Below are positions 23,904 to 41,467 of a DNA stretch of 64,000 nt, piece after piece. Under the pieces are notes generated by a model. That model was not told where the DNA came from. It searched no databases and saw only the letters and a list, made by a program, of their open reading frames with translations. The stretch is from Variovorax soli NBRC 106424 (GTDB taxonomy: Bacteria; Pseudomonadota; Gammaproteobacteria; Burkholderiales; Burkholderiaceae_C), in assembly GCF_001591385.1 (NCBI RefSeq), contig NZ_BCUU01000014.1, positions 1-64,000 on the forward strand. The letters are read 5' to 3'. Both the position numbers and the translations under genes were made by a program. Each line of letters starts with the position of its first letter. The first letter of the stretch is position 1.

Positions 23904-25676
23904 ATGACGGTCGCGAGCGATCACACTCCGTCGGACTGTGCAGCGGGCGGGGCCGACGTTGTCTTGGCGCGGGCCATTGTCGAGCTCACCCGAGTGCGAG
24001 CGGCCTTGTCCGATCAATCCGCGGCTTCGCAGAGCAGTCTTCGAGAACTCGAAGAACGGTTGGTTTGTGTGACTGCCTCTTACGAGGCGTTGCTTTCACG
24101 CCAGGAAGACGTGGAGCGCCTGCAAAACGAACTGCAGCAGGTGCGCGCCCAACTCAATGCAACGTTGAGATCGGTTAGTTGGCGCGTAACAGCACCGATG
24201 CGTCGCATGTCTGGACGGATGCCGAACGCAGTCCGCCGTATGAAGCAATTTGTGCGTGATGACCGCAGACTGCGTAAGACCGCAAAGTGGATCTGGCACA
24301 AGCTGCGAGAAAGGGCGCGCTCCGAGCCCCTGCCGGTGACGGTAGGTCCCGGTGCAAGAACCCCCCGGCTCATCCCGGTGCGCATTGCGTCCGCCGATTG
24401 GGAGTTGCCACCAGTCGAGGATCGGCTGCGCCGGGAGGGGGGCGCTCGACGCATCCTGAACGTTGGCCATGTCTTGCCTTATCCGGTCAGGGCAGGCAAC
24501 GAGTACCGCATCTACCGTATGCTGCGCTGGCTCGCAGAGAGCGGCAGCGACCTGTTGGTCATTGTTTGCCCTTTGCCCGGTGAAGAGCCGACCCCAGCGA
24601 TGCTGGCTCAGGCGGCCACCGTATTCCCCCAGTTGATGGTCTGTTTCAGAACGGGCGAGGTTCATCACAACTTGCCTGACGAGTCTCCGCTATTGGGGGC
24701 GCTAGTCTCCAGTGGCGGACGCGACATTCCGACCGCACTCTCCGAAACAGGCGAACGGACCGCGCGGCAGGCGGAACTGCTCAACATCGCTCGCACCTAC
24801 TGTCCAGACGCATTGGTCGAACTGCTCCAGGCGATTGATGACAGCTGGCGTCCGCAAGCGCTTCTTGCCGAATACGTGTTCATGACACGTCCGTTCCCAA
24901 TTCTTCGTCGCGAACTGCAGAAGATCGTCGACACTCACGATGTCTTTTCGACCATGGCAGAAAAGGTGCGTGCGTATGGGATCGACCAAGTATTGCGGAT
25001 GGAGGCGGCGGAAGAGGCGGAGTTCCTGCTGCGGTCTGATGTGGTGATCGGCATCCAGCCTGAAGAGACTGGTGAACTGCGTCGCCTTGTGCCGAGTCGG
25101 CGCGTTGTCACTGCAGGCGTGGATTTCCCTGTTGAGCCAAGGCTCCAACTGGCAGATCCGAGCCGCGTCGTGCTGCTGGTTGCGTCGGGCAACCCGATGA
25201 ATGTCAAGGGCCTGCGAGACTTCCTTCGGTTTTGCTGGCCCATGGTTCTTGATCAGGTTGCCGATGCCGAGCTTCGCGTCGTTGGGAGCGTTGGGGCGGC
25301 CATCGAAGTCGTCCCCCCGGGCGTTCGCATGCTCGGAAGAATTCCTGATCTTGCCCAGGCATATTCGGACGCGCAGGTAGTTATCAATCCGGCGGTTGCG
25401 GGGACCGGGCTGAAGATTAAGACTGTCGAAGCGCTGGCTCAATTGCGGCCGATCGTGTGCTTTCCAGCGGGAGTGGAGGGGGTCATCCCGGAGGCGCGGC
25501 AGTTTTGCCATGTCGTGACCAACTGGTACGAATTCTCCAAGCGCTTGAGCCAACTGCTGCTTGTCCCGCCAACGAAAGCGGACACTGAGAGCTACGGAAG
25601 GATGCTTGCGAACTTGCTCGCACCGAATCGAATCTATGCGGAACTTGATGCAGCCCTCAATGAAGAGAAACGATGA
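23904..25676 (+). CDS. Glycosyltransferase, GT4-type, with N-terminal coiled coil
   Basis: 590 residues. Residues about 20-90 form a coiled coil (RELEERLVCVTASYEALLSR, then QEDVERLQNELQQVRAQLNA), followed by a basic motif SVSWRVTAPMRRM. The catalytic part (about 180-580) is a GT-B fold starting ILNVGHVLPYPVRAGNEYR, with C-terminal donor site VAGTGLKIKTVEALAQLRPI and a conserved Glu in KTVEA. Probably cytoplasmic and membrane-associated, adding a sugar to the O-antigen repeat. GGAAGG precedes the ATG. It begins 76 bases after rfbC, and its codon use is less G+C-rich than upstream. Donor and acceptor unknown. Confidence 0.85.
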   Translation: MTVASDHTPSDCAAGGADVVLARAIVELTRVRAALSDQSAASQSSLRELEERLVCVTASYEALLSRQEDVERLQNELQQVRAQLNATLRSVSWRVTAPMRRMSGRMPNAVRRMKQFVRDDRRLRKTAKWIWHKLRERARSEPLPVTVGPGARTPRLIPVRIASADWELPPVEDRLRREGGARRILNVGHVLPYPVRAGNEYRIYRMLRWLAESGSDLLVIVCPLPGEEPTPAMLAQAATVFPQLMVCFRTGEVHHNLPDESPLLGALVSSGGRDIPTALSETGERTARQAELLNIARTYCPDALVELLQAIDDSWRPQALLAEYVFMTRPFPILRRELQKIVDTHDVFSTMAEKVRAYGIDQVLRMEAAEEAEFLLRSDVVIGIQPEETGELRRLVPSRRVVTAGVDFPVEPRLQLADPSRVVLLVASGNPMNVKGLRDFLRFCWPMVLDQVADAELRVVGSVGAAIEVVPPGVRMLGRIPDLAQAYSDAQVVINPAVAGTGLKIKTVEALAQLRPIVCFPAGVEGVIPEARQFCHVVTNWYEFSKRLSQLLLVPPTKADTESYGRMLANLLAPNRIYAELDAALNEEKR

Positions 25677-27609
25677 ATGCTTGACTCGGACCGAAACCGC
25701 TCATGAGATCGAGCCGTACGATGTCTTCGTAGATCTGTCGCAATGGGATGGCGGTGCCGACGCCCTGCTTCGCCATGCCGAGTTCCTGTTGACAGGGTGC
25801 GGACACGGTGCGGCTGCGGGAGCGGTGTTCATCGTCCCCCCGCCTCACGTCAAAATTGGAAGTGAGGCGGAAATCTGGCTGACGGGTGTCACTCCGGCGG
25901 CCGCGCTTTCACGGGCAGTGCTGCATGCCGCAACTCATCGCAGGCACCTGCTGGTCTTGCTTGGATCAGTCTTGCCGCCGAACGAATCAGTAATGGAACT
26001 GGTCCGCGTGTTTCGCCGGGACCCGCATTTCGGTAGCGCTCAGCCGCGATTTGCAAGTTCGCTGGACGATTCCATTTGCCCGTTCCCGACAAAGGCCGGG
26101 CGCTCTATTGCAGCAGGATTCACATCCAGGGCCGCCTTGCCGCATCTGCCACAAGTTTCCATTCTTCCGGAACTGGTTGCAGCCTGCCAATTGTTGCGCC
26201 GGGAAGTGGTCGAAGCTTGGTCATGGACCTGCGATGCTTCGGCGGCCGGCGCTGCCCTTACGTTTGGTCTGGTGCAAGCGCGTCGCCGCGGATTTCGTTG
26301 CATTGCTTTGAATCACGCCACTGTTTCGCTTCCAGTCGCTCCAGCCAAGGCCGAGATCGGCCTATTGCACGACTGGAAGCTGGCATATCCGCCGCTATCG
26401 AATGAAGAGTACTTCGCGATCATCGACAAGTATCCCGACCATGCGATAGCCGAATGGGGGCTTGACGACCGTTTCGAGCGGCGCCTCGAGGCAGTCTGGA
26501 GCGCTGCCTATCCGCACGGTGGCGAGTCGCGACGGCTCTTGATCGATTGTCGAGGCTTGTCACCGATCCACAACGGAACTTCCGAGTGTGTTCTGGGCCT
26601 GCTGGACGGCTTGCGCCAACTAGCGACCAAGTGGAAAGTTGACATACAAAGCGATCTAAATGCGGCTGAGTTTCACAGTCTGACTACGCGGTACCCCGAG
26701 TTCGCACATGTCCATGGTGACGTCCGTTCAAACTATGCGGCCGCCTTCGTTCCCAATCAACCATGGGGAATGCAGCGCATCGCGGAGTTGCACAATCACG
26801 CAGCAGTCATCGTTTTCAATATGCTCGACACCATCGGATGGGACATCGTTTATTCGGCGCCCCATGATATCGGCCGGACCTGGCGCTCCATGGCAAGGCA
26901 TTCGGACGGTATTGCCTACATATCGGCGTATTCGCGAGATCGATTCAGAACACGCTTTCAGGTGGGTCGGGAAGTCAGCGAGCGAGTTATCCACTTGAGC
27001 TTGGCCGCCGAGGACTATGTGCGGCTCGCGAGCGCGGACAGAACTTCCGTTTCGGAAGACTACGTGCTTCTATTTGGGAATTCGTACGATCACAAGGATG
27101 TGGATCGCACTTTGGCATTGCTTCTCGATGCCTTCCCCTTGCAGGACTTTGTGGTGTTGGGGGGGCGTGACAATCCGAACTCTCGTGTCAAGGTTGTTCC
27201 CAGTGGAAGCCTGCCTGAAATGGAGATCCACCTGCTCGTCGCAGCGTCCAGGGCGATCGTCTACCCATCCTTTTACGAAGGCTTCGGCTTGCCGGTCGTA
27301 CAGGCGCTTTCCTATGGCAAACCGGTCATCGTAAGAAGATCCGAGCTTTGGCAGGAACTGATTGCTCGATCCAACTTGCCCGGACGGCTTCACGAGTTCG
27401 AGGACACGGTCTCGCTGGTGCGTGCCCTGGGGAGCGTCCTAGAAGCACCTGCGGCGGAGCGAGAAGTCGATGCGCGCGAAAATGGTGACGAGAATGGCTG
27501 GCGCAGATGTGCGGCGGAATCGATCGCATTTGTGGAACAGTGCCTTCGCAGAATCACTGTTGAGAAATGGCGCGAACGGGACGATGCCCTCGGAGTGGCG
27601 CATTCATGA
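25660..27609 (+). CDS. Two-domain glycosyltransferase: degenerate GT2-like N-terminus + GT4
   Basis: About 649 residues. The C-terminal part (about 290-620) is a GT4 enzyme: LLIDCRGLSPIHNGTSECVL, GIAYISAYSRDRFR, the E-x7-E site in YEGFGLPVVQALSYGKPVI. The N-terminal 270 residues resemble a GT-A/GT2 fold (LLVLLGSVLPPNESVMELVR; ACQLLRREVVEAW), but the metal-binding Asp-x-Asp expected after LLVLL is absent, so this half looks non-catalytic. The start is uncertain: ATG 25660 overlaps the previous gene by 17 bases, and ATGs at 25648 and 25636 are in frame. Its stop overlaps the next gene's ATG (ATGA, 27606). Confidence 0.8.
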   Translation: MKRNDECLTRTETAHEIEPYDVFVDLSQWDGGADALLRHAEFLLTGCGHGAAAGAVFIVPPPHVKIGSEAEIWLTGVTPAAALSRAVLHAATHRRHLLVLLGSVLPPNESVMELVRVFRRDPHFGSAQPRFASSLDDSICPFPTKAGRSIAAGFTSRAALPHLPQVSILPELVAACQLLRREVVEAWSWTCDASAAGAALTFGLVQARRRGFRCIALNHATVSLPVAPAKAEIGLLHDWKLAYPPLSNEEYFAIIDKYPDHAIAEWGLDDRFERRLEAVWSAAYPHGGESRRLLIDCRGLSPIHNGTSECVLGLLDGLRQLATKWKVDIQSDLNAAEFHSLTTRYPEFAHVHGDVRSNYAAAFVPNQPWGMQRIAELHNHAAVIVFNMLDTIGWDIVYSAPHDIGRTWRSMARHSDGIAYISAYSRDRFRTRFQVGREVSERVIHLSLAAEDYVRLASADRTSVSEDYVLLFGNSYDHKDVDRTLALLLDAFPLQDFVVLGGRDNPNSRVKVVPSGSLPEMEIHLLVAASRAIVYPSFYEGFGLPVVQALSYGKPVIVRRSELWQELIARSNLPGRLHEFEDTVSLVRALGSVLEAPAAEREVDARENGDENGWRRCAAESIAFVEQCLRRITVEKWRERDDALGVAHS

Positions 27610-28487
27610 CGGGAAGGAAGATGCGGATAGTGACGATCATGGCGCGTCATGGAACGTCGCAGTATGCAGACGCGCCGGCACAGATTCGGGAGTTGTTTGT
27701 GCGGCAATTCCAGGGTGTTGAACACGATATGCTCATCGTGGACAACGCACTACCGATCGGACATCGCGAGTCGCTTTCGTGCGGGGCCACACTGATCGGC
27801 GGGGGAGCGATTGCGCGAGAGTTCTCCGCGTGGGATAGCGCGATCGAATTCTTGGGCGATGACTTGCTTGAATACGACTTCGTGAACTTGGCGACGGCTG
27901 CCTTTCGACAGCTCTATGTGGCGTATCTAGATCGATTCAACTCCACAATGCTCGGCCTTGTTCGCGGACGAGCCGTAGCGATTGGGCATATTGACTATTA
28001 CAACTCGCCTGTCGCGCTTCTGGGAATGAGTTGCCAATCGTGGATCCGAACTTCGTTCGTCTTTCTGCCGCCGCACGAGCTTCGATTGCTCGGGTCCTTG
28101 ATCAGTGTTTCTGTAGGTGACCGCTTCTTCAGCGAGGACCCGCTGAACCCCTTTCTGGCCGAGGCGCCGGTTTCGGAGGGGTACCGGCAGAACATCATCG
28201 GCTGGCTCACGGGTGAAGGAACCGGTCAGGGCACACTATGGCATTCGCGCTTCGCCCTGTCCGCGCAGACGCTTCCCCTGTTTCAGGCCAAGGCAGTTGC
28301 CATCTTCAACGAACAGATGCTTAGCAATCGTCTGCGCGCAAAGGGCTGCTCCCCAGTGGATGCAACTTGGCTGGCGAGCCAGTCCAACAGACTCAAGCCC
28401 GGCGAGCCCTTGGGCGCGATTCCTGATTGGCGTGTGCAACTGGTAGCAAGAGACGCCGATCCGGCGCCGCGCTCTATCATCATCTAG
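27606..28487 (+). CDS. Uncharacterised protein of the polysaccharide cluster
   Basis: About 293 residues; I cannot assign a function. The N-terminus IVTIMARHGTSQYADAPAQI followed by HDMLIVDNALPIGHRES looks like the first strands of a GT-A fold. Later motifs are EFSAWDSAIEFLG, LATAAFRQLYVAYLDRF, AIGHIDYYNSPVALLGMSCQ, WIRTSFVFLPPHELRLLGS and GQGTLWHSRFALSAQTL. It has no classic Asp-x-Asp. The start at 27606 gives an ATGA overlap with the upstream glycosyltransferase; a second in-frame ATG at 27621 has GGAAGGAAG just before it. No signal peptide or membrane segment. Coupling to glycosyltransferases argues for a role in glycan assembly or transfer. Confidence 0.75.
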   Translation: MTGRKMRIVTIMARHGTSQYADAPAQIRELFVRQFQGVEHDMLIVDNALPIGHRESLSCGATLIGGGAIAREFSAWDSAIEFLGDDLLEYDFVNLATAAFRQLYVAYLDRFNSTMLGLVRGRAVAIGHIDYYNSPVALLGMSCQSWIRTSFVFLPPHELRLLGSLISVSVGDRFFSEDPLNPFLAEAPVSEGYRQNIIGWLTGEGTGQGTLWHSRFALSAQTLPLFQAKAVAIFNEQMLSNRLRAKGCSPVDATWLASQSNRLKPGEPLGAIPDWRVQLVARDADPAPRSIII

Positions 28488-28551
28488 ACAGTAGCGTTAT
28501 CTTGGGAGTAGCGATCGCTCCCTGAATTCGATCTCAGACATTGGAGAGTAA

Positions 28552-29325
28552 ATGAAGGCTGTAATACTTGCGGGGGGTCTTGGCACTCGATTTGCCGAGG
28601 AAACGGATGTCAAACCCAAGCCGATGATCGAGATCGGAGGGCGCCCGATCCTTTGGCACATCATGAAAATTTACAGCGCCCAAGGCATCAACGACTTTGT
28701 GATCTGCCTTGGCTACAAGGGATATGTGATCAAGGAGTACTTTAGGAACTATGCGATTCACATGTCGGATATCACTATCGACATGCAAAGCGATGAGGTG
28801 CTGGTTCACAGGCAGCAAGTCGAGCCTTGGCGCGTGACGCTGGTGGACACCGGGGAGGAGACGATGATAGGCGGTCGCATCAAGCGAGTCCTTCCCTATG
28901 TGAAGGATGACGACTGCTTCTGCCTCACTTATGGAGACGGCGTCGGAAACATTGACGTCCAAGCAGCGATTGCCCTGCACCGGAAAGAAGGGCGCCTCGC
29001 GACGGTTACGGCAACACAACCGCCTGGTCGGTTCGGTGCGGTTGAGTTCCAGGGCAATAGAGTTACCGGCTTCCTGGAAAAGCCGCATGGAGACGGCGGC
29101 TGGATCAACGGTGGCTTTTTCGTAGTTTCGCCAAGTGTCGAGAAATACATCGAAGGGGACCAGACCGTATGGGAGCGCGAGCCGATGGAGCGTCTGGCCA
29201 AGGATGACCAGTTGACGGTCTACTTCCACAAGGGCTTCTGGCATCCCATGGATACGCTACGGGACAAGAGGTTTCTGCAAGGGTTGTGGGACTCCAAGAA
29301 GGCGCCGTGGAAGATTTGGAACTAA
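28552..29325 (+). CDS. rfbF: Glucose-1-phosphate cytidylyltransferase
   Basis: Forms CDP-glucose from glucose-1-phosphate and CTP, the entry to CDP-linked deoxysugars. 257 residues, exactly the family size: AVILAGGLGTRFAEETDVKP nucleotide loop, IGGRPILWHIMKIYS, LTYGDGVGNID, FLEKPHGDGGWINGGFFV and the C-terminal GFWHPMDTLRDK. TTGGAG precedes the ATG. It heads a four-gene cassette with an SDR enzyme, an RmlC-like epimerase and another SDR enzyme. The usual partner rfbG (CDP-glucose 4,6-dehydratase) is not recognisable. Confidence 0.95.
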   Translation: MKAVILAGGLGTRFAEETDVKPKPMIEIGGRPILWHIMKIYSAQGINDFVICLGYKGYVIKEYFRNYAIHMSDITIDMQSDEVLVHRQQVEPWRVTLVDTGEETMIGGRIKRVLPYVKDDDCFCLTYGDGVGNIDVQAAIALHRKEGRLATVTATQPPGRFGAVEFQGNRVTGFLEKPHGDGGWINGGFFVVSPSVEKYIEGDQTVWEREPMERLAKDDQLTVYFHKGFWHPMDTLRDKRFLQGLWDSKKAPWKIWN

Positions 29326-29338
29326 TAGGATCTATTCA

Positions 29339-30388
29339 ATGAAGGTTGTTATCACTGGAAACATGGGATATGTGGGCCCCGTTTTGGCGCAGCATCTCCG
29401 TCGTGTCTTCCCTAGGGCCGAGCTAGTCGGATTCGACAGTGGCTTGTTCGCGCACTGCCTGACCACGGCGGAGCGCTTTCCCGAGTCACAACTGAGCCTC
29501 CAAGTCTTTGGTGATGTCCGCAGTCTGGGCGCCTCCTTATTGCAGGGTGCCGATGCTGTCGTGCATCTCGCCGCCGTGTCCAACGACCCGATGGGCAACC
29601 GTTTCGAGGAGGTGACTGACGAGATCAATTTCCGGAGCAGCATAGAGATTGCCAAGAAGGCTCGCGACGCCGGCGTAAAGAATTTCGTATTCGCATCGAG
29701 CTGCAGCGTGTACGGCTTTGCCGAGGGCGGGCCACGAAAGGAGTCGGATCCGCTCAACCCACTGACCGCGTACGCACGATCGAAGATCGCAACCGAGAAG
29801 GCGCTCCGGGAACTGGAACTTGGACAGATGAACGCGACTTGCTTGCGCTTCGCGACTGCTTGCGGGATGTCGGATCGACTGCGCCTCGATCTGGTGCTGA
29901 ATGATTTCGTGGCGGGTGCCTTGACCTCGAAAGAGATCAGCGTCTTGAGCGATGGCACGCCGTGGCGTCCGCTCATCGATGTTCGAGACATGGCACGAGC
30001 CATCGAATGGGCGATCGGTCGCGAATCGGTCAATGGCGGGCAATTCCTCGCCGTCAACGCCGGATCGGATCAATGGAACTATCAGGTTGGGGAGCTGGCG
30101 GAAGCCGTCGCGACCGAGATCCCTGGAACTCGCACTTCCATCAATACGAATGCACCGCCTGACAAGCGGTCTTACCGGGTGGACTTCTCTCTGTTCAGGT
30201 CGCTTGCGCCCAACCATCAGCCGACGGTAACTTTGGCGCAAAGTGTTCAAGGCCTACGCGATGGATTACGGGCGATCAATTTCAGCGATTCGAACTTCAG
30301 GGCTTCTAAGAACGTTCGCCTGCGCGTGTTGGATGATCACATCGCTTCGGGGCGCTTGACCGAGCAATTGCGCTGGTCCGGCGCCTGA
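29339..30388 (+). CDS. NAD(P)-dependent epimerase/dehydratase (extended SDR)
   Basis: 349 residues. NAD loop VVITGNMGYVGPVLAQHL, Asp after strand 2 in LVGFDSGLF, VHLAAVSNDPMGN, the catalytic Ser region FASSCSVYGFAEGG and Tyr-x3-Lys in YARSKIATEK. All residues for a working SDR are present. It does not look like RfbG or like RmlB (no STDEVYG). From its place between rfbF and an RmlC-like gene, the substrate may be CDP-glucose or a CDP-keto sugar, making it a candidate for the missing dehydratase step. AGGA precedes the ATG, 13 bases after rfbF. Confidence 0.85.
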   Translation: MKVVITGNMGYVGPVLAQHLRRVFPRAELVGFDSGLFAHCLTTAERFPESQLSLQVFGDVRSLGASLLQGADAVVHLAAVSNDPMGNRFEEVTDEINFRSSIEIAKKARDAGVKNFVFASSCSVYGFAEGGPRKESDPLNPLTAYARSKIATEKALRELELGQMNATCLRFATACGMSDRLRLDLVLNDFVAGALTSKEISVLSDGTPWRPLIDVRDMARAIEWAIGRESVNGGQFLAVNAGSDQWNYQVGELAEAVATEIPGTRTSINTNAPPDKRSYRVDFSLFRSLAPNHQPTVTLAQSVQGLRDGLRAINFSDSNFRASKNVRLRVLDDHIASGRLTEQLRWSGA

Positions 30389-30407
30389 ACAAGGAAGGCA
30401 AGAGGAA

Positions 30408-30974
30408 ATGAAGTTCACCCCTACTCCACTGCCGGGCGCATATCTCGTCGATCTCGAGCGCCGCGGCGACGACCGAGGATTCTTCGCGCGCTTCTTCTGC
30501 GAGAACGAGTTTGCCCGGGCCGGACTCGTCAATCGCTTTGTTCAGGTCAACAACTCCGTCACCGCAAAGAAGGGCACGTTACGGGGGATGCATTTCCAGC
30601 TTCCGCCTGCGGGCGAAGTAAAGCTTGTGCGCTGCGTCAAGGGCGCTCTGTTCGATGTGATCGTTGATCTGCGTCCCGACTCGGCCACGTTTGGTAAGTG
30701 GTTTGGCGCAGAGCTGACGGCCGAGAACAAGACAATGATGTATGTTCCGCGCGGCTTTGCACACGGCTTCCTCACCTTAACCGACCATGTCGAGGCGCTA
30801 TATCTGGTCAGTGACTTCTACTCGCCCGAGAATGAGCGCGGATTGCGGTACGACGATCCGAAGATCGGAGTCCATTGGCCAGCGGTTGTCCACGAAGTTT
30901 CCGAGAAGGATCGGAACTGGCCGGGTCTAGATGCCGATTTCCATGGGATCGAGCGTATGCGGGGGCTCCTTTGA
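30408..30974 (+). CDS. RmlC-like nucleotide-sugar 3,5-epimerase
   Basis: 188 residues, cupin fold of the RmlC family. The catalytic His motif LRGMHFQLPP, VDLRPDSATFGKWFG, VPRGFAHGFLTL and the late Tyr in ALYLVSDFYSPENE are present, so it should be active. It is clearly diverged from the rfbC at 23279 and sits inside the rfbF cassette, so a CDP- rather than dTDP-linked 4-keto sugar is the likely substrate; that is inferred. AGAGGAA precedes the ATG. Its stop overlaps the TTG start of the next gene. Confidence 0.88.
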   Translation: MKFTPTPLPGAYLVDLERRGDDRGFFARFFCENEFARAGLVNRFVQVNNSVTAKKGTLRGMHFQLPPAGEVKLVRCVKGALFDVIVDLRPDSATFGKWFGAELTAENKTMMYVPRGFAHGFLTLTDHVEALYLVSDFYSPENERGLRYDDPKIGVHWPAVVHEVSEKDRNWPGLDADFHGIERMRGLL

Positions 30975-31900
30975 GGATACTTTTCACTGGCGGGAGTTCG
31001 TTCACTGGCCTCTGGTTCATCAAGGCGCTGAACGAGGCAGGTCATGAGGTTGTGGCCCCACTGCGTGGGGAGCCTTCCGACTACGCAGGCGGCGTGCGCG
31101 GCGAACGAGTAAGACTTCTCGAGAAGCATGCGAACGTTGTTTGGGGCGCTCCTTTCGGTGGCGAGCGATTCGTCGATGTTGTCTCGAAGCAAGTATTCGA
31201 CGTCCTCTGTCACCATGCTGCGCAGGTGGGTGACTATCGAAGTCCCGAGTTTGATGTTGCGGGCGCACTGGCCGCTAACACCCGAAATGCCCATCACGTC
31301 TTGAGGCTGATGCGGGACAAGGGCTTGAGCAAAGTGGTGCTGACTGGGAGCGTCTTTGAACAAGGCGAAGGCGCCGGGGAGGCGCCATTGCGAGCATTCT
31401 CACCATACGGATTGTCGAAGGGACTGACATCGCAGTACTTTACTTATTGGTGCAGCGTCCTTCAGATTTCGCTTGGCAAATTCGTCATTTCCAATCCATT
31501 TGGTCCCTACGAGGAGCCGCGCTTCTGCGGCTATTTGATCAAGACTTGGAAGAATGGGCTGCGGGCAGGTGTTCGCACGCCAGACTACATTCGCGACAAC
31601 ATTCATGTCAGATTGCTGGCGAATGCTTACCACGTGTTTGTGGGAGGGTTGGGAAATCAGCCCGGATTACAACGCATCAATCCGAGCGGCTATGTTGAGG
31701 CGCAAGGTGTATTCGCTAAGCGATTTGCAAGCGAGATGGCGAAGCGGCTTGGATTGAGTTGTGACCTTGAACTGTCTCTTCAGACGGATTTTTCCGAGCC
31801 GAGAATGCGGGTGAATACAGATCCCGCATTAGCTTACGTCGGTGAATTCGATGAGGGTGCGGCGTGGGATGAACTGGCGAATTATTATCGAGCGCTCTAG
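30971..31900 (+). CDS. NAD(P)-dependent SDR oxidoreductase (TTG start)
   Basis: 309 residues. The Rossmann loop begins at once (LRILFTGGSSFTGLWFIKAL), with TGGSSFTG in place of the classic TGxxGxxG, so the middle Gly is replaced. Catalytic elements: LTGSVFEQGEGAG and Tyr-x3-Lys in YGLSKGLTSQY. SNPFGPYEEPRFCGYLIKTW resembles RmlB/RfbG-type substrate loops. The start must be TTG 30971, overlapping the previous stop (TTGA), because the conserved strand follows immediately and no ATG is nearby. Last gene of the cassette; probably a 4-ketoreductase. Product sugar unknown. Confidence 0.82.
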   Translation: MRILFTGGSSFTGLWFIKALNEAGHEVVAPLRGEPSDYAGGVRGERVRLLEKHANVVWGAPFGGERFVDVVSKQVFDVLCHHAAQVGDYRSPEFDVAGALAANTRNAHHVLRLMRDKGLSKVVLTGSVFEQGEGAGEAPLRAFSPYGLSKGLTSQYFTYWCSVLQISLGKFVISNPFGPYEEPRFCGYLIKTWKNGLRAGVRTPDYIRDNIHVRLLANAYHVFVGGLGNQPGLQRINPSGYVEAQGVFAKRFASEMAKRLGLSCDLELSLQTDFSEPRMRVNTDPALAYVGEFDEGAAWDELANYYRAL

Positions 31901-32081: not shown

Positions 32082-33206
32082 TCACCGCAAACGTCGGAGC
32101 TTGCTGCCAAGCCACCGATAGGGACTGGTCAGGCGCCAGGAGCGGGAAGTTTGCATGTCTTGAATTTCCCGGTTAGCCGACTTGAGGCTTGCCTTAGTTT
32201 CGGCGAGCAGTCGTTCCATGACCTGCTTTTCGTGATTGACCTTGGCGAGCGTTGCCGTTGATTCGTTGGTGGCCTTGGCGAGCGTTGCCGTCGATTCGTT
32301 GGTGGCCTTGGCGAGCGTTGCGATCGATTCGTTGGTGGCCTTGGCGAGCGTTGCGATCGATTCATTGGTGGCCCGGACCATTGCGAAGATTCTGTCGAGC
32401 TGCGCTTCGCGCTTTGCGTCTGAGTCAACGAGCTCGCGAAGTGCGAGCTCCAATTCCGCCTTCCTTTTCTCGGCTGCAGCCGTTTCGAGCTTCGCTGCCT
32501 CCAGCGCTTGTGCGTAGGAATTGAGTTGCTCCAGTTGACTTTGGATCAACGAAAAATCCGCCTCACGCTCATTGAATCTGAGTGTCTGATCCGAGCCATG
32601 GATGAGGCCGTTTGAGTAGTTTTGGAGAGAGTGAAGTATGCGGCGCGGGTGAAGATGCAGTTTGGTGCGATCCTTCAAAAACACGGCAACAAAGTCGTTC
32701 CACATGCCTCCCTGAGCGACGGTGCCTGCAGACCTGTCGCCAATGAATGACTCCAGGGCTACAGGCTGCATTCCGTTGCGCTCCGCCCAGTGGACCAATG
32801 CGTTCGCCGAGTCCGGATAGAAACGCCAGCAATCGACAGGCCACCGGTGAAAGAAGCCGTTGCTCGGCGCATTGAGATAAAAGAGCCCGTTTGGTTTTAG
32901 GATTCGCAGCGCCTCGAGAAAGACCAGCCAAAAGAACTCCGAGTGCTCGAAGCAGGAGGAGCAGACAATGGCATCGACGGTTTCGCTGTCGAAGGGTAAT
33001 TTATATGGGTCGTTAAGGACGACATCAACTCCTTCGCCTTGGGCAAAGTCAAGTCCAATGTAATTGACCGGCGAAGGACATACCTCACGCAAACTGCCGT
33101 TCACGTTTTGCGAGCCAATTTCGACAATTTTGAAATCGACCGAGACTTGACTCGAAATGTAGGCCTCAAAGAAGAGCCTACCGTGCAGCATTGCAGACTG
33201 ATGCAT
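32082..33206 (-). CDS. SAM-dependent methyltransferase with C-terminal hendecad-repeat coiled coil
   Basis: 374 residues. Residues about 25-190 are a class I methyltransferase: IVEIGSQNVNGSLREV (SAM loop), YIGLDFAQGEGVDVV, LPFDSETVDAIVCSSCFEHS, ALRILKPNGLFYLNAPSNG. Residues about 212-350 are a long coiled coil that includes four tandem 11-residue units ATNES[I/T]ATLAK coded by 33-bp repeats. The C-terminus is a basic SRSWRLTSPYRWLGSKLRRL, a likely membrane or partner tether. The layout (transferase head, long coil, basic tail) resembles chain-terminating enzymes such as E. coli O9a WbdD, though no kinase domain is present. The ATG at 33206 is tentative: in-frame codons stay open upstream to 33285 without a standard start. 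Confidence 0.85.
   Translation of the reverse strand: MHQSAMLHGRLFFEAYISSQVSVDFKIVEIGSQNVNGSLREVCPSPVNYIGLDFAQGEGVDVVLNDPYKLPFDSETVDAIVCSSCFEHSEFFWLVFLEALRILKPNGLFYLNAPSNGFFHRWPVDCWRFYPDSANALVHWAERNGMQPVALESFIGDRSAGTVAQGGMWNDFVAVFLKDRTKLHLHPRRILHSLQNYSNGLIHGSDQTLRFNEREADFSLIQSQLEQLNSYAQALEAAKLETAAAEKRKAELELALRELVDSDAKREAQLDRIFAMVRATNESIATLAKATNESIATLAKATNESTATLAKATNESTATLAKVNHEKQVMERLLAETKASLKSANREIQDMQTSRSWRLTSPYRWLGSKLRRLR
32241..32372. repeat. Four tandem 33-bp repeats inside the methyltransferase gene
   Basis: cttggcgagcgttgc recurs at 32241, 32274, 32307 and 32340, an exact 33-bp period with a few silent or conservative changes between units (Ile or Thr at one position). Each unit codes for 11 residues (one hendecad), so gain or loss of units keeps both reading frame and coiled-coil phase. 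Confidence 0.95.
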
Positions 33207-33274: not shown

Positions 33275-35208
<1,934 letters not shown>

Positions 35209-35391: not shown

Positions 35392-38300
35392 ATGCCGGTT
35401 GAGTACATCGAGGAACTTGCACTGGAAATCATTCATGGGGGCGACCCTCTCGTCCGGCTGGTCGTCAGCAATCACCGGGCAACCGGCGTGGCCGCGGGGG
35501 CTGCGCAACAGGTATGGTCAGGGAGGAACGACGCGTTCTGGGTGCGCACAGATGCGGTGTCGCGTGCCGCTGCGTTGCCTCCTGCGCAAGATGAGACGGC
35601 TGCGCAGGCGGAGGCGCTCAAGCAAAAGTCGCTGGCCGATGCCTGGGCTTCCCTAGTTCGGGACGGGCAAACCGTCCATCTTCTTCGAGTGTGCCGGGGC
35701 CGGTTCGACGACGTCTTGTCCGGAATCGATTGGCGAACGCGTCGGCCGTGGATCGTGAGCCTGGCGGGCGGCAGTCTTTCTTCCCATGAGGCAATGCGGG
35801 ACGCGGGCTACGGGTTCGCGGGGGCCTGGGGTGCGGAGTGGATCTACGTGGGTCTGGAACACCCAGCCTTGGCTGCGCAACTGGCGGAGATCATTTCGTC
35901 CAGGCGCTCCGCGGGCCAGGACGACAGGGAAGTCTTACGGGCGCAACTGTCGCAGGCAAGGCGGGACGAATCGGACACGCGGCGCCATGCGAACGCGCGC
36001 ATTCGCGAACTGCAGGCGCAGCTTGGGCCGGTCGCCGCGGCGCCTGCCCCCGTCGTTGACGGCCCGATTCCCGCCGGCTCCCTCGCATGGCGGGTTGCGC
36101 TCGGCCTTCAGAGCGCGGGGAGCAGGGTGCCGCTACCCGCGCGGCGCCTTGCCACGCGAGCCCTGAGAGCCGCGTGGTGGATCGTCACGCCTCATCGCTA
36201 TGCAGAACGGCTGCGCTATCTGCGCGCCCGCGGCGAGCGGCCTGCCCCCGTGTTGCCGGCCCCGGTCGTGCAGGACGAGCCTGTCGAGACTTCGCCAACT
36301 CCTTATGCGACCTGGATCGCTCAAGTGGAAGCGCGTTCTCGCGAGGTATGGAATGTGCCGGGCAGCGCGCCCTGGGTCACCTTCCTGCTTCGGGCGGGAG
36401 GCGCAAATCTGGACGCGCTCGGACGCACCACCGAGTCGGTGCGCGCCCAATCGCAAAAGCACTGGGAACTGATCGTCTGTGATGCGGAAGTCGGCATCCG
36501 TCATGCCGACCAGGAGTTGCGCCGCCTCGTGCAGTCGGATTCGCGTATCCGCATTGAAGAGGCCGGCCCTGCCGCCCTGCAACGGGCGGCCCTCGGCGCC
36601 CGAGGCGCCTTCCTGGCGATCCTCGATGCGGGCGACGTCGTGGCCCCGCATGCGGTCAATGAACTCGCTTGTGTCCTCGCCCGCCACCCTGGAACGCAGG
36701 TGGCCTACAGTGATGAAGACGCGCTCGAGGTGGACGGCAGCCGCACGGAGCCTATGTTCAAGCCGGGCTGGTCTCCCGACCTGCTGTACGCATTCAATTA
36801 CTTCGGCCGCCTGAGCTTCCTCCGGCGGGAACTCGTCGAGCAAGCCGGCGGCATCCAGCCGGAAGCCGGCGCGGCGCTCGAGTGGGACTTGAACCTGCGC
36901 TGCAGCGACCTGACGCAGGAGATCGTCCGCATTCCGAAGGTCCTGTGCCATCGCCCCCGAGGCGTTGCCAGCGAGCGGCCTGCCGCCGACTCGAGCGAGG
37001 CCGCCGATCACCGTAGTGCCTTGCAGCGTCACTGGCGCCGCCACGGCTTCGACGCCACCGTAAGCACTCGCCCGGACGGCACCCAGCAGGCGGTCTGGGC
37101 CTCGGCGACTCAGCCGCTCGTGTCCGTGGTCATTCCTACCAAAGATAAGGTCCACTTGCTGCGGACAACGGTTCAGGGGCTGCTCCAAGGGACGGACTAC
37201 GCCAACCTCGAAGTCGTGGTCGTCGACACCGGCTCGACCGAGGCGGCAACGCTTGCGTACTACGAGGAGCTTGCGCCCCGGCCCGAGGTCCGGATCGTTC
37301 ACTTCGAAAAGCGGTTCAACTACTCGGCGGCCTGCAATTACGGCGCGAGCTGTGCCCGAGGCGACCTGCTGCTGTTCCTGAACAATGACATAGAGGTGGT
37401 CGATCGCGGCTGGCTTGCCGAGATGGTCCGATATGCGCAGCGTCCGGGCGTTGGCGTGGTGGGCACGCGGCTGGACTATCCCACCGGAGAACTCCAGCAC
37501 GGCGGCGTCGGCGTGGGGCCGCACCTGTGCGCCCTGATGTACCGCAATGCGGAGCCTGGGGAATGGGGCATCCTCGGGTCGGCGGACCATCCACGAAACT
37601 GGCTGGCGATCATGGGGGCATGCCAGCTCGTGCGGCGCGACCTGTTCGAGCGGGTGAACGGATTCGACGAGTCCTATCTCGTGGCCATGAGCGATGTCGC
37701 CTTGTGCCTGCAGATCTGGAAATTGGGCCACCGCACTGCCTACGCACCTCAGGCCCGCCTCATCCACCACGAAGGCGCCACGCGGGGCAAGAGCAATCCG
37801 GGAGACGACATCCGCCGCATCGCGGACGACATCCGCCTGCTGGGCATCGACGAGGATCCGTACCTGCACCCGGAGATCGATGGCCACGAAGCCATACCGG
37901 CCCTGCGCGGCATCGGTCGGGCCAATCCTCGCGAAACGCTGGCATGGAACGTCGAGACTTTCGGCTCGCTGGAGGCTCCCGTGCTGCACCTCGATCTCCG
38001 TTCGGACCACGAATGCCTCGTCGTCGCCGGGCGTCCGCGGGAAGAGGTCCTCTGGCTTCCACAGGAAGCGCGCCTCGTCCTGGACAAGTGGTCGGCCACC
38101 CGCTGGTGCCTCGACCTGCTGCGCAGGCGCACAGACGTTCGCGCGGCCCATCCGGCGGCCCTGACGAAAGACGGCCAGGCCGGATTTATCCACTGGCTGC
38201 GAGAGTCCGGTGCAAGTGAGGAAGGACTGCCCCCCGCGGGGCTGGCGGCCGTCGAGGCACTCCTGGCTGGAGAGGACCTGGCTGTACGGGCTCGACAGGC

Positions 38301-39927
38301 ATTCATGAATGCCGAGCTTCGCGAGGAACTGCCCGACGGATTGCTGCCGACTGCGGGCCGTGCACAACTCTTCCGCTGGTTCATGCGCACCGGGCGCACG
38401 GATGTCGGATTGCGACTGGAGGAAGTGTGGTGGCTGCTGTGGCAGGCATCGGAGCAGCCCGCGCTCGAGTTGATGAATGCCTGGCACTTCACGCCGGCCT
38501 GGCAGCGCCTCTATCCGGATGCGCCAACCGTCTTCGGCGCCCCCGCCTTCGCCGCGTGGTTCAAGGCCGCGTATCGGTGCAGCGATCCATGGACGGACTG
38601 GACGCAGTGGTCACTGCAAGCGCCTGCGTCTATCCAGATCCGGCAGGCATACAACGCCCGCCAGCATTGGCGCGAACGCTTCCCGAGGGCGCTGCAGGAT
38701 ACCCAGCAGGCAGCCAACCTGATCCATTGGCTCCGCAGCGAGGATGCCGGCTTGCCGGCTGCCGCGCGCCGCTGGTGCGAAGGGCTCGAGGTGCAATCCG
38801 TTTCCCACGAACTGGCGGGCGTGGGCATCAATGTGCTGGGCCATTTCTGTTATCCCTCCGGCTTGCGCGTGTCGGTGGAGGCACTGGTCGGCGGGATGCA
38901 GCTCGCAGGCATTCAGATGTCCCTGAGGGACATCCGGACCGACCCGATGGACGAGCCGCTGCACGCCGCTTTCGACGGCTCGGAAGTGTTCGATGTGTCG
39001 CTGATCCATTCCCAGCCCGAACCGTTCTTCGACATCGTGTACGACCGGGCGGACCTGGCGGAGCGCCGGCCTGCGACCTACAAGATCGCCTACTGGTATT
39101 GGGAGTTCGATTCGATCCCGAATTCGTGGGTCCGGCTGGCCGACGAGGTCGATGAGGTGTGGACAGCGACGGAGTTCGTTGCAAAGGGCCTGCGAGAGCG
39201 CCTGTCGGTGCCGGTGCGCACGCTCTTTCCAGGCGTGCGCCTGAACGGCTACACCCGGCGCTCACGCGAGCACTTCGGGTTGAAGCCTGAGCGTTTCACT
39301 TTTCTCTTCACCTTCCACATGATGAGCATCATGGAGCGCAAGAATCCGCTCGCACTGATCCGCGCCTTCGAGGCCGCATTCCGTCCCGAGGAACCGGTCA
39401 GTCTCGTGCTCAAGACTTCGTTCGGCGCCCGGCATCCGGCGCAACTGGAAGAACTTCGCAGCGCGGCCGAGGGCCACAACATCGAGATCATCGATGCGAT
39501 CTACAGCCCGGACGAGGTCCTCTCGCTCATGGATTCGTGCGACGCCTACGTGTCGCTGCATCGCAGCGAGGGCCTGGGCCTGACCCTTGCCGAGGCCATG
39601 CTGATGGGCAAACCCGTCATTGCGACGGGCTACTCCGGCAACGTCGACTTCATGGACGAGAGCAACAGCCTGCTGGTGCCCTACACCCTCAAGAAGCTGG
39701 GCCGGCCGATCCCGCCCTACGATGCGGACTCGGAATGGGCCGAACCGTCAATCGAGGAAGCGGCCAAGGCCATGCGGCGTGTCTTCGACGACCAGGCCTG
39801 GGCGAGCGAGCTCGGCCGCCGCGCGCAAGCCAGTGCCCTGGAGCGCCTGTCGCTTGAAACGGCGGGGCGCAAGGTTGCCCGCCGCCTAGAGGAAATCCGC
39901 AGCGAGCTCGCTGCGCCCAAGGGCTGA
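35392..39927 (+). CDS. Giant three-module glycosyltransferase (GT2-GT2-GT4)
   Basis: 1511 residues. Order: an N-terminal region of uncertain fold (about 1-180); a short coiled coil (about 185-215) with a following SLAWRVALGLQSAG segment; a first GT2 module (about 326-525, SDEDALEV as metal motif); a second GT2 (about 574-810, VSVVIPTKDKVHLLRTTVQG, FLNNDIEVV, AMSDVALCLQIW); a Trp-rich helical region (about 915-1135); and a C-terminal GT4 (about 1140-1505, FTFHMMSIMERKNPLALIRA, E-x7-E in SEGLGLTLAEAMLMGKPVI). All three catalytic sites look intact. GAGGGGG precedes the ATG. The last 590 residues are closely related to the gene at 47099. Probably assembles several linkages of the polysaccharide. 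Confidence 0.9.
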   Translation: MPVEYIEELALEIIHGGDPLVRLVVSNHRATGVAAGAAQQVWSGRNDAFWVRTDAVSRAAALPPAQDETAAQAEALKQKSLADAWASLVRDGQTVHLLRVCRGRFDDVLSGIDWRTRRPWIVSLAGGSLSSHEAMRDAGYGFAGAWGAEWIYVGLEHPALAAQLAEIISSRRSAGQDDREVLRAQLSQARRDESDTRRHANARIRELQAQLGPVAAAPAPVVDGPIPAGSLAWRVALGLQSAGSRVPLPARRLATRALRAAWWIVTPHRYAERLRYLRARGERPAPVLPAPVVQDEPVETSPTPYATWIAQVEARSREVWNVPGSAPWVTFLLRAGGANLDALGRTTESVRAQSQKHWELIVCDAEVGIRHADQELRRLVQSDSRIRIEEAGPAALQRAALGARGAFLAILDAGDVVAPHAVNELACVLARHPGTQVAYSDEDALEVDGSRTEPMFKPGWSPDLLYAFNYFGRLSFLRRELVEQAGGIQPEAGAALEWDLNLRCSDLTQEIVRIPKVLCHRPRGVASERPAADSSEAADHRSALQRHWRRHGFDATVSTRPDGTQQAVWASATQPLVSVVIPTKDKVHLLRTTVQGLLQGTDYANLEVVVVDTGSTEAATLAYYEELAPRPEVRIVHFEKRFNYSAACNYGASCARGDLLLFLNNDIEVVDRGWLAEMVRYAQRPGVGVVGTRLDYPTGELQHGGVGVGPHLCALMYRNAEPGEWGILGSADHPRNWLAIMGACQLVRRDLFERVNGFDESYLVAMSDVALCLQIWKLGHRTAYAPQARLIHHEGATRGKSNPGDDIRRIADDIRLLGIDEDPYLHPEIDGHEAIPALRGIGRANPRETLAWNVETFGSLEAPVLHLDLRSDHECLVVAGRPREEVLWLPQEARLVLDKWSATRWCLDLLRRRTDVRAAHPAALTKDGQAGFIHWLRESGASEEGLPPAGLAAVEALLAGEDLAVRARQAFMNAELREELPDGLLPTAGRAQLFRWFMRTGRTDVGLRLEEVWWLLWQASEQPALELMNAWHFTPAWQRLYPDAPTVFGAPAFAAWFKAAYRCSDPWTDWTQWSLQAPASIQIRQAYNARQHWRERFPRALQDTQQAANLIHWLRSEDAGLPAAARRWCEGLEVQSVSHELAGVGINVLGHFCYPSGLRVSVEALVGGMQLAGIQMSLRDIRTDPMDEPLHAAFDGSEVFDVSLIHSQPEPFFDIVYDRADLAERRPATYKIAYWYWEFDSIPNSWVRLADEVDEVWTATEFVAKGLRERLSVPVRTLFPGVRLNGYTRRSREHFGLKPERFTFLFTFHMMSIMERKNPLALIRAFEAAFRPEEPVSLVLKTSFGARHPAQLEELRSAAEGHNIEIIDAIYSPDEVLSLMDSCDAYVSLHRSEGLGLTLAEAMLMGKPVIATGYSGNVDFMDESNSLLVPYTLKKLGRPIPPYDADSEWAEPSIEEAAKAMRRVFDDQAWASELGRRAQASALERLSLETAGRKVARRLEEIRSELAAPKG
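39637..39674 (+). repeat. 38-bp exact direct repeat, copy 1 (in giant GT gene)
   Basis: This 38-base stretch (begins ggcaacgtcgacttcatg) is identical to 48944-48981 in the paralogous GT4 gene, in the same orientation 9.3 kb away. Both code for GNVDFMDESNSLL. Confidence 0.9.
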
Positions 39928-39949
39928 AAGCCGGCCGAGCGGCCGGCTT
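39928..39949. terminator. Hairpin between the giant GT gene and convergent wzt
   Basis: Perfect inverted repeat aagccggcc-gagc-ggccggctt directly after the stop codon at 39927, with its last base inside the stop codon of the convergent wzt gene. A 9-bp stem with 4-nt loop and no T-run; a likely terminator for both directions. Confidence 0.65.
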
Positions 39950-40653
39950 CAGGAGGTGCTGACGATCCGGCCGTGTTCGAGATGGATCACGCGATTGCAT
40001 TCCTTCGCGATAAGCTCGGGAGAGTGCGATGCCAGCACCAGGATGCCCGCGCCGGACACCACGTCCTTCATGCGCTGCTCGGCCTTTTCGGTGAACTCCG
40101 CATCGCCCACCGACAGCCATTCGTCCATCAGCAGGATGTCGGCCTTCACGCTGGTGGAGATCGAGAAGGCCAGGCGCATCATCATGCCGGTGGAGTAGGT
40201 GCGCACCGGCATGTTGATGTAGTCGCCCAGGCCGCTGAACTCGATGATGTCCGGCGTGAGATCGTCGATCTGCTTCTTGCTCAGGCCCATCACCAGGCCG
40301 CGCAGCATGATGTTCTCCACACCATTGGCATCGCCTTCGATGCCCAGCGACGGATCGATCAGGCTGGACACCGAGCCGCTGCGAGTGAAGTCGCCCACCG
40401 ACGGTTCGTACACGCCCGCGAGCGTGCGCAGCAGAGTGGACTTGCCGGCGCCGTTGTGCCCGGTCAGGCCAAGGCGGTCGCCTGCCTTGAGCTCCAGGTT
40501 GATGTCGGAAAGCGCCTGCACGACGTTGACGCCGACTTCCTTTCCGAAGCGGCCGCCGGTCACCGATGCTGCGAGTGTCTTCTTGAGGGAGTTGGCGCCG
40601 GCGCCGTAGATCGGGAAATTGACCCCGACGTTCTTCAGGGAGATATAGGCCAT
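39949..40653 (-). CDS. wzt: Polysaccharide ABC exporter, ATP-binding subunit
   Basis: Cytoplasmic ATPase that powers export of undecaprenyl-linked polysaccharide. 234 residues: Walker A GHNGAGKST, the family-typical RGLVMGLSKKQI, signature YSTGMMMRLAFSIS, Walker B ADILLMDEWLSVGD and switch His in LASHSPEL. It ends after the nucleotide-binding domain and lacks the C-terminal carbohydrate-binding domain of Wzt proteins that recognise capped chains (E. coli O9a), resembling the short KpsT or Klebsiella O2a type. It starts 7 bases after wzm, with a weak ribosome site. Confidence 0.93.
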   Translation of the reverse strand: MAYISLKNVGVNFPIYGAGANSLKKTLAASVTGGRFGKEVGVNVVQALSDINLELKAGDRLGLTGHNGAGKSTLLRTLAGVYEPSVGDFTRSGSVSSLIDPSLGIEGDANGVENIMLRGLVMGLSKKQIDDLTPDIIEFSGLGDYINMPVRTYSTGMMMRLAFSISTSVKADILLMDEWLSVGDAEFTEKAEQRMKDVVSGAGILVLASHSPELIAKECNRVIHLEHGRIVSTS

Positions 40654-40660
40654 GGTCGCG

Positions 40661-41467
40661 TCAGAGCCAGTAGACCACCCGGCGGCGGTACTTCGAGAAG
40701 AGCCAGCTGGCGGCAGCCAGGTTGATGGCCGTCCAGATCAGGATGCCTATCCAGTTGTGAATGTCGGATACGTTGCCCATGAGCGGTGCACGCAGCAAGT
40801 CCAACATCTGAGCCAGCGGGTTCCAGAGGATGTACTTGCCACGGCCTGGAAGGCTTTCCGGCAGCCAGAAGACGGGCGTGAGGAACATCAGCATCTGCAT
40901 CACGCTGGTCACGATCTGGGCCACGTCGCGATAGCGCGTGCAGATCAGGCCCAGCACCAGACCCAGCATGTGAGCGTTGATGATGAACAGCAAGAATGCC
41001 GGGATGAACAGCAGCGCATGCATCTTCAGCGAGATGCCGGCCCAGATCGCCACCGGGATGTACAGCACGATGTGGTGCGCAAACTGGATCATGTTGCGCG
41101 CCATTGCGCGCCACACGAAAAGGCTGATCGGGAAATAGCCCTGCTTCAGGTAGTTGCCCGAGTTGATGAACGCGTTGCACGAGTCCATCACGATGCTGTT
41201 GAAGAAGGTCCAGAAGATGATGCCCAGCGCCAGGTGCGGGAAGAACTTGGACAGCTCGGTACCGAACAGAGCGCTGTACAACGGTCCCATGCCGCCGACC
41301 ATGGCGCCCATGCTCAGGGTCAGCCACAGCGGCCCTAGCATGGAGCGCCGGTAACGCAGGACGATGTCGAACCAGGCGAGAGTCCACCAGATGTCGGTGC
41401 GGCGAGTGCCTTCCCACCAGTCGCCCCACGCGCTGCGGTGAAGATTGGAATGGGCGATATCGGTCAT
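40661..41467 (-). CDS. wzm: Polysaccharide ABC exporter, permease subunit
   Basis: Inner-membrane channel of the exporter, 268 residues with about six membrane segments of the ABC-2 type. Hallmarks are RYRRSMLGPLWLTLSMGAMV near the N-terminus, an amphipathic N-terminal segment, YLKQGYFPISLFVWRAMARN and a late CTRYRDVAQIV coupling region. It overlaps the manC stop (ATGA, 41464-41467) and precedes wzt, so manC-wzm-wzt form a coupled operon. Confidence 0.94.
   Translation of the reverse strand: MTDIAHSNLHRSAWGDWWEGTRRTDIWWTLAWFDIVLRYRRSMLGPLWLTLSMGAMVGGMGPLYSALFGTELSKFFPHLALGIIFWTFFNSIVMDSCNAFINSGNYLKQGYFPISLFVWRAMARNMIQFAHHIVLYIPVAIWAGISLKMHALLFIPAFLLFIINAHMLGLVLGLICTRYRDVAQIVTSVMQMLMFLTPVFWLPESLPGRGKYILWNPLAQMLDLLRAPLMGNVSDIHNWIGILIWTAINLAAASWLFSKYRRRVVYWL

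Follow-up and report, generated by a model that had tools for sequence, protein, structure and literature searches.

In Escherichia coli, the coiled coil of WbdD sets O-antigen chain length (PMC5082667, PMC11231755), engineered changes to this coil shift that length (PMC5082667), and the coil has been published as a marker of chain terminators (PMC11231755). Beyond its coil, WbdD has a helix associated with the membrane and a site that recruits the polymerase (PMC11231755). The methyltransferase MT of E. coli O101/O162 has also been proposed as a possible ruler (PMC13168486). ABC-dependent O antigens divide into cap-reliant and cap-independent systems, and in the former, transporters without a cap-binding domain fail to export (PMC9445017). 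The Klebsiella pneumoniae O1/O2 systems do not use this module and chain length there is not set by capping: the O1 exporter has relaxed specificity, terminal pyruvate is confined to longer chains without length control, and chains that lack the terminal modification are not substantially longer (PMC10629545). Vibrio cholerae O1 likewise bears a terminal methyl group and exports through a transporter without a cap-binding module (PMC10629545). Rhamnose-rich O antigens with 3-O-methyl caps are also known (PMC9445017).

We analyzed a 64,000-nucleotide stretch of the Variovorax soli NBRC 106424 genome (NZ_BCUU01000014.1, positions 1 to 64,000; hereafter the window), in which a 374-residue open reading frame on the minus strand (32082-33206) encodes a methyltransferase mounted on a helical stalk. 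The head (residues 1-212; 32571-33206) is a class I SAM methyltransferase, as the initial annotation had proposed: it matches PF08241 at 44.5 bits (cut-off 21.2), Pfam found methyltransferase families only and no kinase domain in the protein, and the best Foldseek match of its predicted structure is 3l8d (E 1.5e-8), the best matches listed being methyltransferases. The stalk (residues 214-350; 32157-32567) holds neither proline nor glycine over ~137 residues and would measure ~20 nm as a single straight helix. The AlphaFold2 prediction was built on 57 sequences (mean pLDDT 84.6) and places helices at residues 216-259 and 266-373, the second unbroken. Hydrophobic residues along the stalk recur with a period of 3.53 overall, a peak reached by 9 of 2000 shuffles. 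The long coiled coil claimed for this protein thus stands as a long helix with a coil-like period; an oligomeric coil is probable only by inference, since the AlphaFold2 model is a monomer. The stalk runs into a stalk-end motif and basic tail, SRSWRLTSPYRWLGSKLRRLR (residues 354-374; 32085-32147), which matches WbdD residues 592-612. The tail is as basic as had been claimed, with seven K/R and no D/E among the last 24 residues.

Comparison with WbdD, for which we read the wbdD gene of E. coli HS (O9) from its genome, divides the protein in two. By BLASTP, residues 241-374 align with WbdD residues 483-612 (36.6 bits, E 1e-6), and the aligned stretch ends in SRSWR[LM]T..YR[WY]LG in both proteins, which newly supports a WbdD-like stalk and tail at the level of sequence. 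The head gave no significant BLASTP alignment with the WbdD methyltransferase. Only 21 residues separate the start of the motif from the end of the protein, and WbdD runs ~96 residues past the aligned stretch, so that the C-terminal membrane helix and polymerase-recruitment region of WbdD are missing here; a shorter anchor may lie in the basic tail. The proposal of a WbdD-like enzyme is supported for the stalk and its end motif, and not for the head or the C-terminal ~96 residues. We note the SWR stalk-end motif here as a WbdD-type feature, having found no published criterion for it; a text search of the literature with five spellings of the motif found no paper containing them.

Within the stalk, four 33-bp tandem units (residues 279-322; 32241-32372) encode ATNESIATLAK twice and ATNESTATLAK twice. 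Tandem Repeats Finder (TRF) reports period 33, 4.1 copies, 96% matches and 0% indels at 32240-32373 with a score of 226, the runner-up among its 10 rows within the 64 kb scoring 79. Adjacent units differ by 1, 2 and 1 bases. When the codon order of the stalk was shuffled, a TRF score of at least 40 appeared in 19 of 500 shuffles (maximum 81). Pairwise DNA identity among the units averages 0.929. When codons were redrawn at the usage of the gene itself, the mean was 0.743 and the maximum 0.869, and 0 of 5000 redraws reached the observed value. The repeats noted at the outset are thus real, and because the units are more alike in DNA than the repeated protein sequence demands, the array is the product of a recent tandem duplication and not only of selection on the coil pattern. 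Each unit adds 11 residues, or ~1.6 nm, and keeps both frame and helical register, in support of what had been claimed. The array has a hydrophobic period of 3.67, the hendecad value, which an 11-residue repeat favors by construction; the 65 residues before it have no significant period alone (1404 of 2000 shuffles). Phmmer matched a solved protein, 6h9l, with repeated ATKEDIEALRK-like hendecads (E 0.004), and the array lies inside the unbroken predicted helix. A likely core position is isoleucine in two units and threonine in the other two, which should weaken the coil. Near-identical in-frame units are one feature of slippage-prone (VNTR) genes and are found here; the exact copy number could be off in this draft assembly of 239 contigs. 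In a search of 99 other Variovorax genomes, the best hit was 59% identical over residues 1-206 and had no stalk, and in the four plasmid records obtained no match spanned 80% of the query.

The neighboring genes suggest what the enzyme may act on. The methyltransferase gene starts 68 bases after a putative rmd, an NAD-dependent epimerase/reductase gene on the same strand (33275-34240, minus; PF01370, PF16363) that we call rmd-like from its position. Next to it lies gmd, for GDP-mannose 4,6-dehydratase (34153-35193, minus; TIGR01472 at 476 bits, cut-off 415). Because gmd is well supported and the adjacent gene is rmd-like, GDP-D-rhamnose is the likely precursor. A ManC-type mannose-1-phosphate guanylyltransferase/mannose-6-phosphate isomerase gene (41464-42882, minus) and the gene of a triple GT4 glycosyltransferase with three Glycos_transf_1 stretches in Pfam, a candidate polymerase (42977-46672, minus), are also present. 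A multi-module glycosyltransferase with GT2 and GT4 domains (Pfam) is encoded at 35392-39927 (plus). Within the first ~170 residues of this protein, which we take to resemble the end of an FkbM-type methyltransferase, a coil appears by eye after that apparent end; Pfam gave no FkbM match in the protein.

The exporter is of another type than that of WbdD systems. The triple GT4, Wzm and Wzt had been named as neighbors and all are present by Pfam. Wzm (40661-41467, minus) resembles a galactan-exporter permease (225 bits, below the cut-off of 380), and the best model for Wzt (39949-40653, minus) is likewise a galactan exporter (252 bits, below the cut-off of 400). This Wzt has 234 residues and no Wzt_C cap-binding domain (PF14524), and a profile search found that domain in 0 of 1 draft genome (control rings 4/14). 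A defining feature of WbdD systems is therefore lacking in the window, and the statement that its Wzm and Wzt are as in WbdD systems does not survive.

To place the stalk in a wider setting, we searched 299 family genomes with a profile built from six tails (E up to 1e-4). The motif occurs in at least 81 places in 53 genomes, the present one included, a lower bound because 25 candidates were scored per genome. Two of the 81 places are in the window: the methyltransferase gene and a gene at 23904-25676 (plus) for a protein with a short coil and SWRVTAPMR followed by a GT4 domain. The coil of this second protein is N-terminal, and its gene sits inside a plus-strand low-G+C island. Pfam scans of 25 of the other 79 motif proteins returned class I methyltransferases (7), GT4 (6), GT2 (3) and one FkbM methyltransferase, with pyruvyltransferase domains in four (one just below cut-off, one with PhyH) and single PIG-L, WbsX and GT99 domains. 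We take GT99 to be the family of the WbbB Kdo-transferase terminator. One motif protein (L166) gave only beta-propeller matches in Pfam.

Relatives of the head mostly do without a stalk. In 80 named loci with head relatives, 67 of the proteins have 210-250 residues in total, which leaves no room for a long stalk; the methylation reaction itself therefore needs none. The others comprise three cut or short sequences, proteins of 254 (L062) and 251 (L084) residues, two with other domains (L112, L116), and those with helical-looking extensions (L039, L040, L041, L042, L048 and L052). A tree built from the heads only (93 rows, L118 being left out because of its length) places L040, from Betaproteobacteria bacterium MS502-56, as sister to the window gene (SH-aLRT 83). 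L040 shares with the window gene this sister head and a coil with a near-identical DNA array, here of 63 bp in at least 4.6 copies (96%) and ended by the contig edge, so that its tail is unseen; it differs in its 21-residue units and in lying directly downstream of Wzm (PF01061) and of a Wzt that has Wzt_C (132 bits). Wzm and a Wzt with Wzt_C (120 bits) likewise directly precede L041, whose protein carries a rhamnan-synthesis F domain after the motif. The placement of these two relatives beside a cap-binding exporter is in line with the initial proposal. Tandem arrays in the 80 loci lie mostly outside the methyltransferase gene, and within its stalk only in L040 and L052 (21 bp x 4.4, 70%). 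A link between stalk and Wzt_C was considered and gave no clean rule: stalked methyltransferases occur with Wzt_C (L040, L041, the L138 family) and without it (the window, L042, L154), and unstalked ones stand beside a Wzt that is long, judged by length only, in L083, L089 and L110. Separately, repeats of 105, 126 and 231 bp in L098 (1-3028) fall in an adhesin-like reading frame that has the appearance of a trimeric autotransporter by eye.

We further investigated whether other stalks carry arrays, taking as stalk up to 250 residues before the motif and running TRF over the 81 motif proteins. This gave 18 rows in 16 stalks, with periods of 21 (11 rows), 42 (four), 33 (one, the window), 12 (one) and 9 bp (one); the unit is a multiple of seven residues in 15 of the 18 rows and 11 residues in one. 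A 42-bp array in L141 (67%) appeared in one TRF run and was absent from another. An initial comparison, 18 rows over 60.2 kb of stalk vs 16 in 278 kb elsewhere (two of the latter being the L211 array, seen in an overlapping locus), looked like strong enrichment and was undone by coils of SMC proteins from the same family, which gave 15 rows of all periods in 43.0 kb and, in a second set, 8 rows in 54.3 kb (27 of 40 genes, 13 being dropped where the Walker pattern was missing from the longest frame). SMC and motif-protein sets share genomes. Since SMC coils give weak arrays at a similar rate, weak 21-bp periodicity is generic to coil DNA.

Near-perfect arrays (at least three copies at 94% or more) were found in L138 (42 bp x 3.4, 94%), L154 (42 bp x 5.3, 100%), L165 (42 bp x 5.0, 100%, at a contig end) and the window. 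L040 makes five such proteins, the units of the other four being 14 or 21 residues long; the head is a methyltransferase in four of the five and lies beyond the contig end in one. At 4 of 81 motif proteins vs 0 of 27 SMC genes, the difference in near-perfect arrays is not significant (Fisher p 0.57). A post hoc excess of such arrays behind methyltransferase heads is not relied on, because the head classification missed methyltransferases that Pfam finds in L172, L177, L185 and L201.

Stalk length varies where heads are alike. In the L138-type methyltransferase family, anchor and motif were both found by pattern in 6 of 17 loci (that of L138 included), with anchor-to-motif spans of 68, 92, 98, 106, 117 and 130 residues. 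A single-contig genome (G178; locus L305, G178:C1:498000-517900) holds two such genes ~7 kb apart whose heads are 98% identical over 244 residues and whose spans are 128 and 66. A Wzt with Wzt_C (105 to 128 bits) is present in five loci of this family (L301, L304, L305, L307 and L308), which assigns the L138 array to a type of locus where export is cap-gated. The locus of L154 (L302, G263:C1:1-19900) resembles the window more closely: the stalk with its 5.3 identical 42-bp units is encoded near a 254-residue Wzt without Wzt_C that is 50% identical to the window Wzt. A second short Wzt suspected in L302 was rejected, Pfam showing only a partial 135-residue ATPase frame. The 19.9-kb stretch around L165 gave no Wzt match.

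Variation within a species was approached indirectly, through the known ruler. We searched 5426 genomes with the terminal 754 bases of the E. coli HS wbdD gene, covering stalk and tail, and obtained matches in 263, with at least 80% coverage in 211. Among 60 matches listed at even steps, 48 are full-length, all exactly 754 bases long at 87.5-100% identity, with no change in stalk length; stalk length is therefore conserved at least in E. coli WbdD. TRF found no tandem array in the E. coli HS wbdD stalk, its single weak row sitting after the stalk. The WbdD ruler thus appears to have a fixed length, which would not be expected of a slippage-prone gene. The other 12 matches listed are partial, and two that we inspected are truncated wbdD copies adjoining IS1. 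In these O9-type loci (L132 and L133, from E. coli NDM4 and GZ04-0086), an IS1 transposase gene adjoins a wbdD remnant without its N-terminal part, and wbdA and wbdC are annotated.

We tentatively favor, at a probability of roughly 0.45, a terminal O-methyltransferase whose stalk length plausibly selects which chains are methylated and does not gate export. The enzyme would be a glycan O-methyltransferase carried by a helical stalk, with the WbdD-type SWR motif at the stalk's end and presumably at the membrane, and its substrate would most likely be the free end of an O-polysaccharide containing D-rhamnose. Since only a chain long enough to bridge the stalk would reach the head, stalk length would set the shortest methylatable chain, each 33-bp unit adding its 11 residues. 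Methylation is probably not needed for export, since the exporter has no cap-binding domain; it would mark, and might stop, longer chains. The alignment of stalk and tail with WbdD, gmd beside the rmd-like gene together with the known methyl-capped rhamnose chains (PMC9445017), and the motif on terminal-modifying enzyme types (methyl- and pyruvyltransferases and the GT99-domain protein) all point this way. So do the near-perfect in-register arrays of L040, L138, L154 and L165, the widely differing stalks behind similar heads (68-130 residues and the G178 pair), the sister position of L040 next to Wzm and a Wzt with Wzt_C, and the pyruvate on longer chains in K. pneumoniae O1 (PMC10629545). The many unstalked head relatives, the missing post-motif region of WbdD, the readiness with which coil DNA repeats, the non-significant Fisher result and the K. 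pneumoniae O1 chains that do not grow substantially longer when the modification is lost (PMC10629545) argue against it.

A quite possible alternative is that the coil does no more than oligomerize the enzyme and hold it at the membrane, its length being neutral over a wide range and its repeats the usual outcome of slippage where coil DNA tolerates it. In that case the methyl group would be an epitope, comparable with the K. pneumoniae O1 pyruvate and the Ogawa methyl group (PMC10629545). An exporter without a cap-binding domain agrees with this, as do the weak arrays common in SMC coils, the wide spread of spans among relatives and the Ile-to-Thr change in two units, which also weighs against the length-selecting stalk that we favor. 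A length-neutral coil sits badly with the constant E. coli WbdD stalk, seen in all 48 full-length matches among those listed (211 genomes at 80% coverage or more). The preference for units of seven-residue multiples or 11 residues also speaks against neutrality, although frame and helix needs alone favor such units and SMC coils too have 21-bp ones.

We consider it improbable that the gene is a full WbdD-type ruler as first proposed, in which the cap would both end chain growth and be required for export, and slippage by whole units would shift O-antigen length in heritable steps. The similarity of stalk and tail to WbdD fits, the E. coli O101/O162 MT is a proposed precedent for a methyltransferase domain with a coil acting as a ruler (PMC13168486), and stalk arrays do occur in cap-gated loci, as L040 and the five L138-family loci with Wzt_C indicate. 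The window Wzt contradicts the export-gated part: neither it nor the genome has a detected Wzt_C, and cap-reliant transporters without this domain fail to export (PMC9445017). With one genome per species in the comparison, no variation in repeat number was observed.

Base composition bears on a further reading. The methyltransferase gene has 54.7% G+C (52.9% in its head part, 32587-33206), nearer to the 23.9-35 kb segment, which is at 55-60% as are the plus-strand genes at 23904-31900, than to wzt (62.7%) or the triple GT4 gene (65.6%). A gene recently acquired by horizontal transfer, whose enzyme works on whatever the plus-strand low-G+C island (20-32 kb) makes or stands wholly apart from the Wzm/Wzt pathway, would account for this and for the stalkless best match in other Variovorax genomes. 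We consider this, too, improbable, given that the gene lies only 68 bases from the rmd-like gene on its strand and that gmd and the rmd-like gene are themselves at 58-59%.

Beyond this locus, we put forward with considerable doubt a more general idea: that tandem duplication of helix-register units (7n or 11 residues) both builds the stalks of terminal-glycan enzymes in bacteria and alters their size. In several lineages, whether or not export is cap-gated, repeat number would then act as a heritable dial for the length of surface sugars, and here, through a stalk of putatively adjustable length, it would set which chains receive the methyl mark. The length of the O antigen matters for attack by phages, survival in serum and contact with the host. 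Our literature search, most subscription papers being outside it, returned nothing on point about stalk repeats as natural length control and no natural counterpart of the engineered WbdD coil changes among the matches listed. Fresh register-keeping stalk repeats and the G178 head pair are natural material in which to test measurement by a coil outside E. coli, and the same material bears on the role of a stalk where the exporter does not read a cap.

Altogether, the Variovorax protein shares with E. coli O9/O9a WbdD an N-terminal methyltransferase, a long coil and the stalk-end motif SRSWR-T--YR-LG (compared in the O9 sequence), and its locus, like E. coli WbdD loci, is an ABC-transporter O-polysaccharide locus with a multi-module glycosyltransferase. 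It differs from WbdD in the family of its methyltransferase, in ending without the post-motif region, in a Wzt without the cap-binding domain and in the near-identical DNA repeats of its stalk, which E. coli HS wbdD lacks. Unlike O9/O9a WbdD it has no kinase, as is the case for O8 WbdD, known to us from its description as a methyltransferase only with the kinase absent (PMC3482155). Terminal modification without cap-gated export is known, again by description, from K. pneumoniae O1 WbbZ and the V. cholerae O1 Ogawa methyltransferase (PMC10629545). The E. coli O101/O162/Onovel32 MT, likened by description, has the same plan, a single methyltransferase domain at the N-terminus and a coil at the C-terminus, and likewise belongs to an ABC-transporter locus; the variation reported for it is gene disruption, not repeat number (PMC13168486).
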